A stretch of DNA of 64,000 bases. It comes from an uncultured Fodinibius sp. GTDB lineage: Bacteria > Bacteroidota > Rhodothermia > Balneolales > Balneolaceae. Below the pieces are notes generated by a model, which searched no databases, was not told the DNA's origin, and saw only the letters and a list, made by a program, of their open reading frames with translations. The stretch spans positions 186,001 through 250,000 of the forward strand of contig CAJXMW010000003.1 of NCBI GenBank assembly GCA_913056235.1. The letters are read 5' to 3'. Positions 50,150-53,616 of the stretch are shown in pieces. The stretch's first letter is position 1. Every line of letters begins with the position of its first letter. The translations under genes were made by a program, and so were the position numbers.

Positions 50150-50950
50150 ATGAAAACAAACGTATCTATTCTCGGCGGCGGAAACCTCGGATCAGCCTTG
50201 GCCCAGGGGCTTGCCCGGACTAAAGAGGCTCAACAAAAATACAATGTGACCGTAACCCGTCGAAATACCCAACACATCAAATATTTGGAAGAGGATGGAA
50301 TTACCGTCACTTCTGATAACCCAGCGGCTGTAGAGAATGCAGAAATTCTGGTTCTGGCGGTACAGCCCACTCAGATCGAGGCGCTGATTGAAGAAATAAA
50401 ACCGGCATTGGATCCACAAAAACACATTCTGATATCTACCATTACCGGCCTGAAGAATGAAGAGATTGCCGACCTCACCGGCGATGACTTCCCTATTATA
50501 CGGGTAATGCCAAACACTGCCGCCGCCATCAACCAATCGATGACCTGCGTGGAAAAGACGCCTCACAAAAATGCAGAACAGGCTACCATCGACCTTTTTG
50601 AGACACTGGGCAAAACGCTGGTCATTAATGCTGAACTGATGGAAGCTTCGACGGTACTGGGCGCCTGCGGCATCGCCTTTTTCCTGCGATACATCCGCGC
50701 CGCTTCACAAGGAGGCATCGAAGTAGGTTTCCATGCCGAGGAGGCGCAGCTCATTGCAGCCCAAACGGCGCTGGGTGCCGCGGGCCTGCTGTTGGAATCC
50801 GGTGGACATCCCGAGCAGGAAATCGACAAGGTGACGACCCCCAAAGGCTGCACCATTGCTGGTCTCAATGAAATGGAGCACAACGGACTTAGCTCTGCAC
50901 TCATTAAGGGAATTAAAACTTCCTACGAAATGATCGAGGATATTCGGTGA
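50150..50950 (+). CDS. proC: Pyrroline-5-carboxylate reductase
   Basis: A 266-aa NAD(P)H-dependent enzyme for the last step of proline synthesis. The Rossmann motif is SILGGGNLGSALAQGLA. PIIRVMPNTAAAINQSMT and the C-terminal block ESGGHPEQEIDKVTTPKGCT are the standard P5CR signatures. It starts 12 bases after argH and closes the arginine/proline operon; ornithine or glutamate semialdehyde links both routes. A perfect palindrome follows its stop. Confidence 0.95.
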   Translation: MKTNVSILGGGNLGSALAQGLARTKEAQQKYNVTVTRRNTQHIKYLEEDGITVTSDNPAAVENAEILVLAVQPTQIEALIEEIKPALDPQKHILISTITGLKNEEIADLTGDDFPIIRVMPNTAAAINQSMTCVEKTPHKNAEQATIDLFETLGKTLVINAELMEASTVLGACGIAFFLRYIRAASQGGIEVGFHAEEAQLIAAQTALGAAGLLLESGGHPEQEIDKVTTPKGCTIAGLNEMEHNGLSSALIKGIKTSYEMIEDIR

Positions 50951-50959
50951 GTTTTTATT

Positions 50960-50993
50960 TAGATGTACTAAACTTCGAAGTTTAGTACATCTA
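50960..50993. repeat. 34-bp perfect palindrome after proC
   Basis: Every base of 50960-50976 is matched by the reverse complement of 50977-50993, centred on AACTTCGAAGTT. It begins nine bases after the proC stop. In RNA it would form a 14- to 16-bp stem with a minimal loop. There is no T-run on either side, so it may stabilise the operon 3' end or be a protein-binding site. Confidence 0.7.
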
Positions 50994-51025
50994 CAAGTAG
51001 GCTAAAATTTTCCGGCGAATATATA

Positions 51026-51063
51026 AAAATAAAAAAGCTCCGCAGCAGAGCTACGGAGCCAGA
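51026..51063 (-). repeat. 38-bp direct repeat (left copy), terminator-like
   Basis: Identical to 52681-52718 over 38 bases. It contains the stem GCTCCG/CGGAGC with inner pairs, and on the minus strand ends in TTTTTTATTTT, the form of an intrinsic terminator. No minus-strand gene ends next to this copy, so it appears to be a duplicate of the sdh-operon terminator. Confidence 0.85.
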
Positions 51064-51224
51064 AAAAGTTGGAAGCGATAAGATAAAATCAATAGTCAAT
51101 ACTACTCTAAGGACATTCAAACGAATAGAACAACAACAATAATACACTTTAGATATAAACCAGGACAGAACTACTACATGTTTAATTGTATTTCGTTTTC
51201 GATCTGTCTAGCATATTAATCCAG

Positions 51225-51255
51225 ATAAGGATTCAAAGATCAATTAGATCCTTAT
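51225..51255 (+). promoter_or_regulatory. Inverted repeat upstream of the Cys-rich peptide gene
   Basis: ATAAGGAT and ATCCTTAT, eight bases each with a 15-base spacer, end 37 bases before the ATG at 51292. It could be an operator or a 5'-UTR stem. The region 51064-51291 otherwise shows nothing recognisable and is strongly AT-rich. Confidence 0.35.
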
Positions 51256-51291
51256 TATTTCACATTTATCAACTCAAAAAAACTCTTCATT

Positions 51292-51522
51292 ATGAATCAA
51301 CTCATCAAAAGTGCTTCCCTATTCGCTTTATTACTTGTCTTTTCATTTAACGTCAACACAGATTCTAAAAGCCCAAATGTTAATTTAGAGACATCAAATG
51401 TTGTTGCAAAAGTTAGTGAGGGTTGTTCAGACTGCACTTCCACAAGCGAAGAGGAATGTGTAAGAATAATCCATGGTAATAATGTAGATATTTACTATGG
51501 GGATGAAGAACCTTGTTCCTGA
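51292..51522 (+). CDS. Short exported Cys-rich peptide (NVEALA-like precursor candidate)
   Basis: A 76-aa protein. Residues 1-24 are a signal-like leader (LIKSASLFALLLVFSFNVNT), then an Asn/Val/Glu segment (SPNVNLETSNVVAKVSEG), and a C-terminal part with four Cys (GCSDCTSTSEEEC and EEPCS). The layout, a short leader, an N-x-E-type segment and few Cys, and the adjacent propeller lipoprotein, recall the NVEALA peptides of Bacteroidota that pair with TolB-like propeller genes. The exact NVEALA word is absent, so this is a resemblance. A 13-bp hairpin separates it from the next gene. Confidence 0.65.
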   Translation: MNQLIKSASLFALLLVFSFNVNTDSKSPNVNLETSNVVAKVSEGCSDCTSTSEEECVRIIHGNNVDIYYGDEEPCS

Positions 51523-51550
51523 TTAATATTTTGAATTTAAATATTAAACG

Positions 51551-51582
51551 ACAGGGAATGCATCTAAGAATGCATTCCCTGT
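51551..51582 (+). terminator. Strong hairpin between the peptide and propeller genes
   Basis: ACAGGGAATGCAT and ATGCATTCCCTGT form a perfect 13-bp stem with a CTAAGA loop, 28 bases after the peptide stop and 18 before the propeller ATG. There is no T-run, so partial termination or 3'-end stabilisation of the peptide mRNA is likelier than full termination. Confidence 0.6.
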
Positions 51583-51599
51583 AAATTTAGAGCTCTTCT

Positions 51600-52667
51600 A
51601 TGAAAAAGTATTTATTCACAACGTTTATTCTTCTATCTATCATCTCCTGCAAGCCTGAATATAATGAGCCAACAAGCCTATTTAATACTAACAAGGTATT
51701 AAACAGTGTTCCCCTACCAATATCATCTGATTTATTTAGCATACCATTGCAAATGATTACCAAAGATACTCTGCTAATTGTTCTCGACAGATATCAGAAA
51801 GACAATAATACGTTTATATACAAAGCCTTTAATACGAACAACGGTAACACTATTTCTACATTTGGACGTATAGGAAAAGGACCTGACGAATTTCAGTTTC
51901 CTTCTTTTCTAACTGACATCTCTTATAACTCTAATCTTTTTGGAGTGTATAATGGTAAAAGGTTTATGTTTAATGAACTTTCAATAGACAGCATCGTCAG
52001 TAATTCAAGACGTCTTACGGTTAAATCGTATCAAAATCTAAGTAATTTTTATTCAAAAATAATTAAAACAGATAAAGAGCATTTTTTTGGGTCAGGATTT
52101 TTTGATAAGGGCAGATATGCACTTTCAGATACAGCTGGAAATATTTTAACTGTAAAAGGCGATTATCCCTTTGAACACCAATTCAGTTTGTCTAAGAGAG
52201 ATCTTGGAATGGCTTTTCAATGCAAACTAAAAAAACATCCGAATAAACAACTAGTTGTATCTGCTACTGCGAACTCTGCAAACCTAGAAATAATAAAAGT
52301 TGGTACACACGGATTTGAAGTTATTAAAAAGATAAACTCGCGACCCACTATTTTTGAGAATAATGGGTCAAAAAATCGTATTGATGTTGATGTATTACAA
52401 GAAAATCGATACGGATATCAGAATGTAAGCATCACAAAAGACTATATTTACGCTTTATATTCTGGCAAAAAAATGGATAAATCCTACCATTACACCGATA
52501 TAGTCCTCGTTTTTGACTGGGAGGGTAATCCTGTTATCAGGTATAACCTAGATCAGGAAGTCCGATATATTAGTGCCAAAGCAAATAATGAAGCGCTATT
52601 CGCCATCAGTAAAAATGAAGACGGAGATCATGAAGTTCGCAAATTTTCGCTAAACCCTGATCAATAA
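51600..52667 (+). CDS. Six-bladed beta-propeller lipoprotein (TolB-like/BF2992-type)
   Basis: A 355-aa lipoprotein: leader MKKYLFTTFILLSIISCKPE with lipidated Cys17. The motif ISTFGRIGKGPDEFQFPSFL is the GxGPGEF-type word of the Bacteroidota six-bladed propeller families, and repeated strand patterns follow (NLFGVYNGKRFMFNEL, YIYALYSGKKMDKSY, VLVFDWEGNPVIRYN). It is AT-rich (Lys/Asn/Ser-heavy) relative to neighbours. It is paired with the short peptide upstream and may bind, export or sense it. Outer-membrane location is inferred from the lipobox. Confidence 0.72.
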   Translation: MKKYLFTTFILLSIISCKPEYNEPTSLFNTNKVLNSVPLPISSDLFSIPLQMITKDTLLIVLDRYQKDNNTFIYKAFNTNNGNTISTFGRIGKGPDEFQFPSFLTDISYNSNLFGVYNGKRFMFNELSIDSIVSNSRRLTVKSYQNLSNFYSKIIKTDKEHFFGSGFFDKGRYALSDTAGNILTVKGDYPFEHQFSLSKRDLGMAFQCKLKKHPNKQLVVSATANSANLEIIKVGTHGFEVIKKINSRPTIFENNGSKNRIDVDVLQENRYGYQNVSITKDYIYALYSGKKMDKSYHYTDIVLVFDWEGNPVIRYNLDQEVRYISAKANNEALFAISKNEDGDHEVRKFSLNPDQ

Positions 52668-52680
52668 ATGGTATCATAGC

Positions 52681-52718
52681 AAAATAAAAAAGCTCCGCAG
52701 CAGAGCTACGGAGCCAGA
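52681..52718 (-). terminator. sdh-operon terminator; right copy of the 38-bp direct repeat
   Basis: On the minus strand GGCTCCG...CGGAGC forms a stem followed by TTTTTT. It lies about 80 bases beyond the sdhB stop at 52799 and is the natural terminator of that operon. It is identical to 51026-51063. Confidence 0.8.
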
Positions 52719-52798
52719 TAAATTAAAGGTCCTGAAACAAGGCCTACTTCGCCAAAGTAGCAACGGCTATGTAGGCTGAATTCAGGATGACACAAAAC

Positions 52799-53566
52799 CT
52801 ACGCTTCTTCGCCGGCGAAGGCCGCGCTCATATAATTGCGGCGCATCTCGGCAATAGCGGAAATCGAAATACCTTTCGGGCAGACGGCCTCACATTCGGC
52901 GTAGTTGGAGCAATCGCCGAAGCCTTCTTCTTCCATCTGCTCAACCATAGCCACCGTACGCTCGTCTTTCTCAGGTTTGCCCTGTGGCAGACGGTTCAGG
53001 TGAGCCAGCTTTGCTCCTGTAAACAGTGAAGCAGAACCATTCGGACAGGCTGCCACACAAGCACCGCATCCAATGCAAGTAGCATAGTCAAACGCAGTAT
53101 CAGCCGTCGATTTTTCAACCGGAATGGAATTGGCTTCCGGCGCCGATCCGGTCTTAACGGATACGTATCCACCGGCTTCGATAATACGATCAAAGGCACT
53201 GCGATCAACAACTAAGTCTTTGATAACAGGAAATGCTTTGGCACGGAATGGCTCTACAACGATGGTATCGCCATCTTCGTAGTTACGCATATGCAGCTGA
53301 CAAGAACAAGTCATCGCTTTGGGGCCGTGCGCCTGACCGTTGATCACCAGGTTGCACGAGCCGCAGATACCTTCACGACAGTCATAATCAAATTCAACAG
53401 GCTCTTCTTCACCTTTTGCTACAATCTGCTCATTGAGCACATCGAGCATTTCCAAAAACGACATGTGCTCGTTGACGTTGTCGAGCGTATAATCAACTAA
53501 TTCACCCGGTTGATCCGGTCCGTCTTGTCGCCAAATTTTTAAGTGTATCGTCATTTCTTTTGACAT
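52799..53566 (-). CDS. sdhB: Succinate dehydrogenase/fumarate reductase iron-sulfur subunit
   Basis: A 255-aa iron-sulfur protein. Start M at 53566 (MSKEMTIHLKIW) is preferred to 53584. The [2Fe-2S] cluster ligands are in DCREGICGSCNLVINGQAHG and TCSC; the [4Fe-4S] motif is CIGCGACVAACP and the [3Fe-4S] motif CSNYAECEAVCPKG. It transfers electrons from SdhA FAD to the membrane quinone site. Last gene of sdhC-sdhA-sdhB. Confidence 0.95.
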   Translation of the reverse strand: MSKEMTIHLKIWRQDGPDQPGELVDYTLDNVNEHMSFLEMLDVLNEQIVAKGEEEPVEFDYDCREGICGSCNLVINGQAHGPKAMTCSCQLHMRNYEDGDTIVVEPFRAKAFPVIKDLVVDRSAFDRIIEAGGYVSVKTGSAPEANSIPVEKSTADTAFDYATCIGCGACVAACPNGSASLFTGAKLAHLNRLPQGKPEKDERTVAMVEQMEEEGFGDCSNYAECEAVCPKGISISAIAEMRRNYMSAAFAGEEA

Positions 53567-53581
53567 AATCCTATACTTTAC

Positions 53582-53616
53582 CACGGAAACTCTTCCCGAA
53601 AACTTTCGGGACCGTG
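53582..53616 (-). promoter_or_regulatory. Hairpin between sdhA and sdhB
   Basis: CCCGAAA and TTTCGGG (53595-53610) form a tight stem, and CACGG/CCGTG outside it extends the structure. It lies within the 72-base sdhA-sdhB gap, so it could be an mRNA processing or stability element. Confidence 0.35.

Follow-up and report, generated by a model that had tools for sequence, protein, structure and literature searches.

Two genes between identical REP-like terminator hairpins behind sdhB in an uncultured Fodinibius: a probable recent module gain

Organization of the proC-sdhB locus

The window analyzed in this study is a 64,000-nucleotide stretch of contig CAJXMW010000003.1 (positions 186,001 to 250,000) from an uncultured Fodinibius species. 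Between proC and sdhB in this window lie two genes, one for a small peptide and one for a propeller protein, which are enclosed by two copies of a hairpin-forming direct repeat (Table 1). The reading favored here, to which we give a probability of roughly 0.6, is that a foreign two-gene module was gained recently at a hairpin that resembles repetitive extragenic palindromic (REP) sequences; this hairpin is the terminator of the sdh operon and was duplicated in the event. The left neighbor is presumed to be proC from its own sequence and from its position in an argB-argE-argH-proC run, and the right neighbor is taken to be sdhB.

The original prediction was of identical 38-bp direct repeats at the two positions listed in Table 1, and both copies were verified there without a single difference. 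The 1655 bp given for the cassette is correct as the distance from start to start, whereas the DNA strictly between the copies measures 1,617 bp. When flanking bases are included, the likeness of the two copies extends to 47 bp at 94% identity. The 38-mer was found at three or fewer mismatches only at the two focal places in the entire genome (3,972,939 bp). A search of the 448,543-bp contig for exact direct repeats 18 bp or longer, spaced 150 to 15,000 bp apart, returned four pairs (38, 20, 19 and 19 bp), and the focal pair is the sole one longer than 20 bp. An assembly artefact, in which a mis-join at the 38-bp repeat created the two hairpin copies, is extremely improbable. The repeat is close in length to usual assembly word lengths, which speaks for a mis-join, but the genome is assembled in nine contigs with 98.4% completeness, no third copy exists at up to three mismatches, and both hairpins must still adjoin the insert.

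On the minus strand, which is the sdh strand, each repeat contains an intrinsic-terminator-like hairpin, as expected if the repeats hold the sdh terminator. As RNA, the hairpin has a folding energy of -19.3 kcal/mol and a z-score of -5.2. The stem has a mismatch on the plus strand. On that strand no T-run follows the hairpin, and therefore proC and the insert genes do not have a canonical terminator in this repeat.

The insert was also predicted to differ from its neighbors in base composition and codon usage, and it does so on both counts. Its GC content is 0.33, compared with a contig mean of 0.454, and the GC content at third codon positions is 0.27-0.28 in the two insert genes and 0.47-0.57 in seven neighboring genes. 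The insert is one of two islands of 35% GC or less in the contig. The propeller protein passes the PF15869 (TolB_like) model with an E-value of 1.2e-27 and 97.5 bits, relative to a curated cut-off of 29.2. The only Pfam match of the peptide is below threshold (DUF6520, E 0.023), and it has no match to NVEALA (PF14055). Judging from their N-termini, both proteins are probably exported.

Table 1. Features at the proC-sdhB junction, in coordinates of the window.
Feature	Position	Strand	Basis
proC, left neighbor	50150..50950	+	presumed gene name
Left repeat copy, proC side; REP-like hairpin, terminator-like on minus strand	51026..51063	-	identity to right copy; hairpin
Inserted AT-rich DNA, 33% GC, between hairpins	51064..52680		composition; missing from proC-sdhB junction of G001, G004, G010, G011
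76-aa peptide, hydrophobic N-terminus, four cysteines in C-terminal part	51292..51522	+	translation of open reading frame (ORF)
Perfect inverted repeat (13 bp, 6-nt loop) in spacer from peptide gene to propeller gene	51551..51582		repeat search
355-aa TolB-like six-bladed propeller protein, lipobox-like IISC at N-terminus	51600..52667	+	PF15869; lipobox read from sequence
Right repeat copy, sdhB side; sdhB terminator, family ATCT before hairpin	52681..52718	-	repeat and hairpin evidence
sdhB, right neighbor, 3' end facing right hairpin	52799..53584	-	presumed gene name

The junction in related genomes

The junction was compared in 12 genomes of the genus, which were the genome of the window itself (G000) and 11 congeners. 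The argB-argE-argH-proC run meets sdhB in seven of the 12. In G004 and G010, sdhB and proC are separated by one hairpin and no gene, and the coding matches lie approximately 208 bp and 184 bp apart, respectively. This insert-free junction agrees with the predicted ancestral order of proC, terminator and sdhB, to which a two-gene insert was added with duplication of the terminator. Short proC-sdhB spacers without a hairpin of the focal type were seen in G001 and G011, argH adjoins sdhB in G002 and G003, and no arg genes were found near sdh within the stretches fetched for G005, G007 and G009. The opposite pattern, in which all relatives carry the two genes with a single terminator copy, is not what the 12 genomes display.

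A hairpin of the same type lies behind sdhB in G004, G007 and G010. The tree calculated from sdh and arg genes (sdh alone for G005, G007 and G009) pairs G000 with G007 (support 0.93 for protein and 0.82 for DNA) and G004 with G010 (1.0 for both). Because relatives in this tree have one-hairpin sites or solo hairpins, the hairpin behind sdhB seems to predate the insert. That the two copies are identical fits acquisition of the module once the lineages of G000 and G007 had separated. The bases next to the hairpins also differ between the two sides. The sdhB-side copy has ATCT, as do G004 and most members of the hairpin family described below, and the proC-side copy has TTCT; there, TTTTTCTGG precedes the hairpin on the minus strand in place of the family's ATCTGG. 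This difference fits an ancestral site that had the upstream sequence of the sdhB side and the downstream sequence of the proC side. A single insertion appears to have produced both repeats.

A longer history, which we consider quite improbable, would place the bounded module in the ancestor of G000, G004, G007 and G010, with recombination between the hairpins removing it later and leaving a solo hairpin as a scar. The solo hairpins behind sdhB in three relatives could be such scars, and solo and occupied sites alternate likewise at a locus of a REP-associated tyrosine transposase (RAYT). However, the copies are identical at 38 of 38 positions, although substitutions and T-run length already distinguish them from their orthologues in G004 and G010, and close relatives of the propeller are missing from the congeners.

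Other genes were also seen next to sdhB. In G008 (L058 3638-8987, G008:C9), approximately 5.3 kb between sdhB and proC contain a second, distant sdhA/sdhB-like pair with 27-28% identity, and the gap in G006 (L063 7295-7636, G006:C1) contains a 113-aa ORF without a Pfam match. In the sister G007 (L059 3464-6263, G007:C3), the tail of the sdhB hairpin is the point where a 922-aa ORF of 28-32% GC with weak family matches ends, and one half of a further terminator remains on the recQ side. This ORF is another AT-rich gain at that hairpin.

A dispersed family of REP-like hairpins

The 17-nt core of the hairpin, CCGTAGCTCTGCTNCGG, occurs with no more than one mismatch at 36 places in seven of the 12 genomes, and the reversed pattern does not occur at all. 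Nine of these copies are in the genome of the window, including the focal pair and seven others. All but two of the 36 occurrences, both from G004 and without a locus, were aligned. The aligned members have C at position -6 (31 of 34) and T at position -5 (30 of 34). At least three further outer base pairs are present in 30 of the 34, and these pairs vary between places and covary. Several members have a T-run directly behind unrelated genes in the manner of a terminator, and for this reason the sdh operon seems to have adopted a member of the family as its terminator. Whether the repeat is simply a common genomic terminator had been raised as an objection to the original prediction. This applies to the hairpin core, which is dispersed and has a T-run behind unrelated genes at several places, but not to the complete 38-mer, which is unique to the site.

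The family shares with REP sequences the form of a short, dispersed palindrome with several copies per genome. REP sequences usually number more than 100 copies (PMC2817692), and nine copies are few beside that number. The GTAG or GT[AG]G foot expected 5' of the hairpin is missing from the family, whose 34 aligned members mostly have ATCT. The focal repeat is not placed in the REP family proper because it lacks this foot. Some RAYT subclasses of the Bacteroidetes also lack the GT[AG]G motif; in subclass 2.6 the hairpins are atypical and do without it (PMC6006769). The focal case is best described as REP/RAYT-like anatomy with a foreign two-gene cargo.

RAYT genes and repeat-bounded units

The RAYT model PF01797 matched 27 times in six of the 12 genomes. 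Four matches are in the genome of the window, with E-values of 4.1e-24 to 1.3e-13 against NF047646, one of them above the cut-off. Exact direct repeats of 20-33 bp lie outside both ORF ends at 11 of the 27 RAYT loci, counting L215 and L217, which are alike and perhaps not independent, and counting repeats that are not all hairpins. The same measurement from ORF ends gave none in 66 controls, for which sdhB, pssA and genes for peptidases were taken from these genomes and from relatives. The insert has the repeat-gene-repeat anatomy found around many of these RAYT genes. One RAYT site in the genome of the window has a hairpin on both sides of the gene; the corresponding site is occupied by a RAYT with similar hairpins around it in G004 and by a solo hairpin in G010, and G002 has neither.

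A larger unit lies between pssA and porA in G004. It has a hairpin, a gene for a 485-aa protein, a second hairpin, a RAYT gene (L194, NF047646 E 3.2e-33) and a third hairpin in 2.96 kb, and its hairpin core is one mismatch from the focal core. DNA alignment shows that G010 lacks the block, and gene order shows the same for G000, G007 and G009; the other seven genomes have a different gene behind pssA. A REPtron that moves as a unit would be present as a hairpin-bounded block in one genome and absent at the same site in a close relative. Both the pssA-porA block and, relative to G004 and G010 with their one hairpin, the focal unit have this pattern, as presence and absence only. In a 400-kb comparison of G004 and G010, a further gene was found between direct repeats of approximately 135 bp in G004 and not in G010. 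This gene is a 121-aa ORF (L294, G004:C1:233974-234661) with an apparent resemblance to DUF559 endonucleases. In seven of the 12 genomes (L273, L275, L277, L278, L279, L281 and L282), the spacer behind pssA contains a hairpin with a T-run as well as a short leader ORF that is rich in Trp. The gene that follows is taken to be trpE, and from its layout the spacer is likely a trp attenuator.

A RAYT acting in trans could have moved a hairpin with its cargo to the hairpin behind sdhB. The anatomy of the insert equals that of the repeat-RAYT-repeat units of the genus, and the G004 pssA-porA block, with its near-identical core, is a unit of this kind with empty relatives. In addition, CT stands directly 5' of both focal hairpins, as it does in most of the 34 aligned members, and TnpAREP of E. 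coli cleaves at C/T, between the two bases, beside REPs (PMC8266576). On the other hand, the hairpin family and RAYT genes do not co-occur across the genus, none of the RAYTs found in the genome of the window stands beside the focal hairpin type, and both focal copies have the same outer stem. Mobilization by a RAYT is possible but unlikely, in part because RAYT and the hairpin family are not co-distributed in the 12 genomes.

Relatives of the two genes

Propeller matches with an E-value of 0.001 or less were found in 13 of 58 genomes, including the genome of the window. When the 11 congeners were searched, only three had matches: G004 (25% identity over most of the length, E 3.4e-17, the best of the congeners), G011 (25% identity, E 1.8e-6) and G006 (21% identity, with an additional stretch of approximately 87 residues at 37%, E 5.1e-5). 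Thus, no close relative of the propeller was found in the 11 congeners, and no second strong copy was found in the genome of the window. This genome does have clustered lipoprotein-like ORFs, at least seven in number, that contain a G.GPGEF-type motif (L074, G000:C1:1191000-1210000); four of these ORFs have weak PF15869 matches. The peptide matched only its own genome among 394 genomes of the phylum, of which at least seven are congeners. The nearest propellers elsewhere are 37% (G028) and 30% identical, and neither locus has an adjoining peptide gene.

A scan of an 84,980-species collection with the propeller sequence alone returned no relative, and a scan of the same collection with alignment A1 returned 49 loci. 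In Aquiflexum and Cognataquiflexum, a peptide gene with the same C-terminal pattern lies directly upstream of a PF15869-type propeller gene. Several Bacteroides-type genomes have NVEALA-type peptides directly before the propeller gene; one of these neighbors was above the PF14055 cut-off (Bacteroides, E 1.6e-11) and two were below it. In these genomes, the peptide and propeller are a recurring module. The NVEALA-peptide/TolB-like propeller (BF3164-type) pairs of the Bacteroidota resemble it in that the gene for a PF15869 propeller is directly preceded by one for a small, Cys-rich, exported peptide. They differ in that the window peptide does not match PF14055 and its propeller's nearest relatives, 37% and 30% identical, stand without a peptide neighbor. 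Literature searches on NVEALA, propeller lipoproteins and terminators as insertion sites returned nothing pertinent in the portion of the literature that was accessible.

An origin from a plasmid or phage was considered and rejected, as propeller relatives on three Phocaeicola plasmids are just 24-26% identical and none were found in phage records. Boundaries in common with homologous modules were also considered. Direct repeats flank propeller loci in MES10 (35 bp), Aquiflexum (32 bp) and Cognataquiflexum (17 bp), but the MES10 repeat is a local intergenic repeat, and those of Aquiflexum and Cognataquiflexum are promoter-side and terminator-side sequence of a tandem peptide-unit array and differ from the focal repeats. 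The Aquiflexum array is at L102 5559-7700, where a 32-bp sequence is repeated before two peptide genes. Of 15 other propeller loci, 14 have no repeat longer than 14 bp (for L100, this covers just approximately 120 bp of downstream sequence). The B. fragilis locus L105 has several 32-45 bp repeats at one constant offset, as would result from a duplicated gene.

Comparison with known mobile systems

Three conventional systems do not account for the insert. First, integron cassettes have the attC core motif GTTRRRY at their boundary. GTT is present on neither strand of the 38-mer, so there is no such motif, and the insert contains no integrase. Secondly, there are no inverted repeats at the insert ends as in a classical transposon; the nearest candidate is a 16-nt pair at 81%, approximately 200 and 80 bp inside. 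Third, for site-specific integration, no integrase was found, and the interval 50900-52850 has no match to Rfam, tRNA families included.

The REP/RAYT systems, including TnpAREP and REPtrons, are more similar. They have in common with the locus short dispersed palindromes, CT beside the hairpin and, in this genus, RAYT genes that often lie between direct repeats. Unlike them, the focal unit encloses cargo rather than a RAYT, its hairpin has a low copy number and no GT[AG]G foot, and T-runs stand behind genes at several members of the hairpin family. Single-strand elements of the IS200/IS605 type have hairpins near both ends, as the focal unit does, but the focal unit has no transposase and its empty site already has a hairpin, which IS200/IS605 insertion does not need. 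A mobile element inserted into REPs has been reported for ISPpu9 in Pseudomonas putida (PMC8450116). That case resembles the present one as foreign DNA inserted at a REP and differs in that the focal insert has no transposase gene and has a complete hairpin on both sides. No description of cargo genes bounded by REP hairpins was found in a literature search, which most subscription papers lay beyond.

Evaluation of the insertion

The favored reading draws on the foreign composition of the insert, the lack of close relatives of its genes in the genus, the one-hairpin empty sites in two congeners, the identity of the two copies, the dispersal of the hairpin core and the matching anatomy around many RAYT genes. 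It also draws on the occupied and empty sites elsewhere in the genus, at pssA-porA and at the RAYT site where G010 has a solo hairpin. Its parts differ in strength. That a module was gained and the hairpin duplicated is highly probable; that the hairpin is the reason the site became an insertion point has about an even chance. In the sequence of events we propose, this lineage would have gained a foreign module, encoding an exported Cys-rich peptide and a propeller lipoprotein, at the REP-like terminator hairpin of the sdh operon, and the insertion would have left the module flanked by a hairpin at either end. With one hairpin per side, sdh keeps its terminator and the proC-side copy is a by-product. 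The palindrome itself may be what made this spot receptive to insertion, by way of breakage or processing of a single strand at the hairpin, and the chemistry would be either of the RAYT type or template switching at the hairpin during replication, rather than that of a classical transposase or integrase. The insertion history of the original prediction is supported by this evidence. Its suggestion of a mobile cassette that uses a terminator as target is possible, but the insert has no recombinase gene and the genome has no second strong propeller copy.

Several results weigh against the favored reading. First, inspection of ORFs and family matches in the insert revealed no recombinase gene, only the propeller and the sub-threshold peptide match. 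Secondly, the outer stem GCT/AGC is common to both focal copies and recurs just in the sdhB hairpins of G004 and G007, the stems of other members being GCA/TGC, GTT/AAC and others; the shared stem suggests that a local hairpin was duplicated and not that a foreign REP arrived. Third, the site between convergent genes tolerates insertions anyway, as G006 (approximately 920 bp) and G008 (approximately 5.3 kb) hold other DNA there. Fourth, where the module has its closest homologues elsewhere, the boundaries carry repeats of a different kind or no repeats. Fifth, RAYT and the hairpin family are not distributed together: both are present in G000, G003 and G004, the hairpin alone in G002, G005, G007 and G009, a RAYT match without the hairpin family in G006, G008 and G010, and neither in two genomes. 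The focal core was not found at up to three mismatches within approximately 1.5 kb of the four RAYTs of the genome of the window; a RAYT flanked by copies of this hairpin was seen in G004, with a one-mismatch core, and not at these four. Lastly, the repeat pairs found in the G004/G010 comparison are of mixed origin. The 15 pairs in G004 comprise three from the pssA block, four from the second gene, four from one 375-bp tandem repeat and four unclassified, and the four pairs in G010 comprise three from one gene duplication and one in paralogous genes.

Many of these results speak for plain recombination, in which foreign DNA was captured at a break or a template switch in a neutral, convergent intergenic region with no role for REP or RAYT. 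The hairpin would have been duplicated because hairpins promote breakage and strand switching. We regard this as a serious alternative with somewhat less than an even chance. The unrelated inserts of G006 and G008 at the same convergent site, the local outer stem of both hairpins, the missing recombinase, the lack of a second such repeat in 448 kb and the unassociated RAYT and hairpin families in 12 genomes all favor it. However, genes between repeats are found in the genus more often than a single accident would lead one to expect, as the RAYT counts indicate (11 of 27 against 0 of 66), and there are two pairs of occupied and empty sites between sister species. Even if plain recombination is correct, the terminator hairpin would still be a point of gene gain that leaves the operon it ends unbroken.

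The gain of a module at a REP-like terminator could also be an instance of a wider system in this genus, in which REP-type hairpins bound movable cassettes and trans-acting RAYTs set a hairpin with adjoining host or foreign genes beside a hairpin of the family. This is doubtful, again because RAYT and hairpins are not co-distributed. If true, terminators formed by REPs would be docking sites for new genes. To our knowledge, REP-type hairpins are usually viewed as spreading nothing but themselves. A two-gene cargo between identical REP-like hairpins, with empty sites in congeners, is a compact test of whether REPs move other DNA, and such hairpins may be docking points for new genes.

Additional features of the contig

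Two further features were observed. The other island of 35% GC or less in the contig (G000:C3:9632-21260) falls as low as 29% GC. Directly behind proC, at 50960-50993 of the window, is a perfect 34-bp palindrome, whose 24-bp core has no further occurrence in the 448-kb contig even when four mismatches are allowed.
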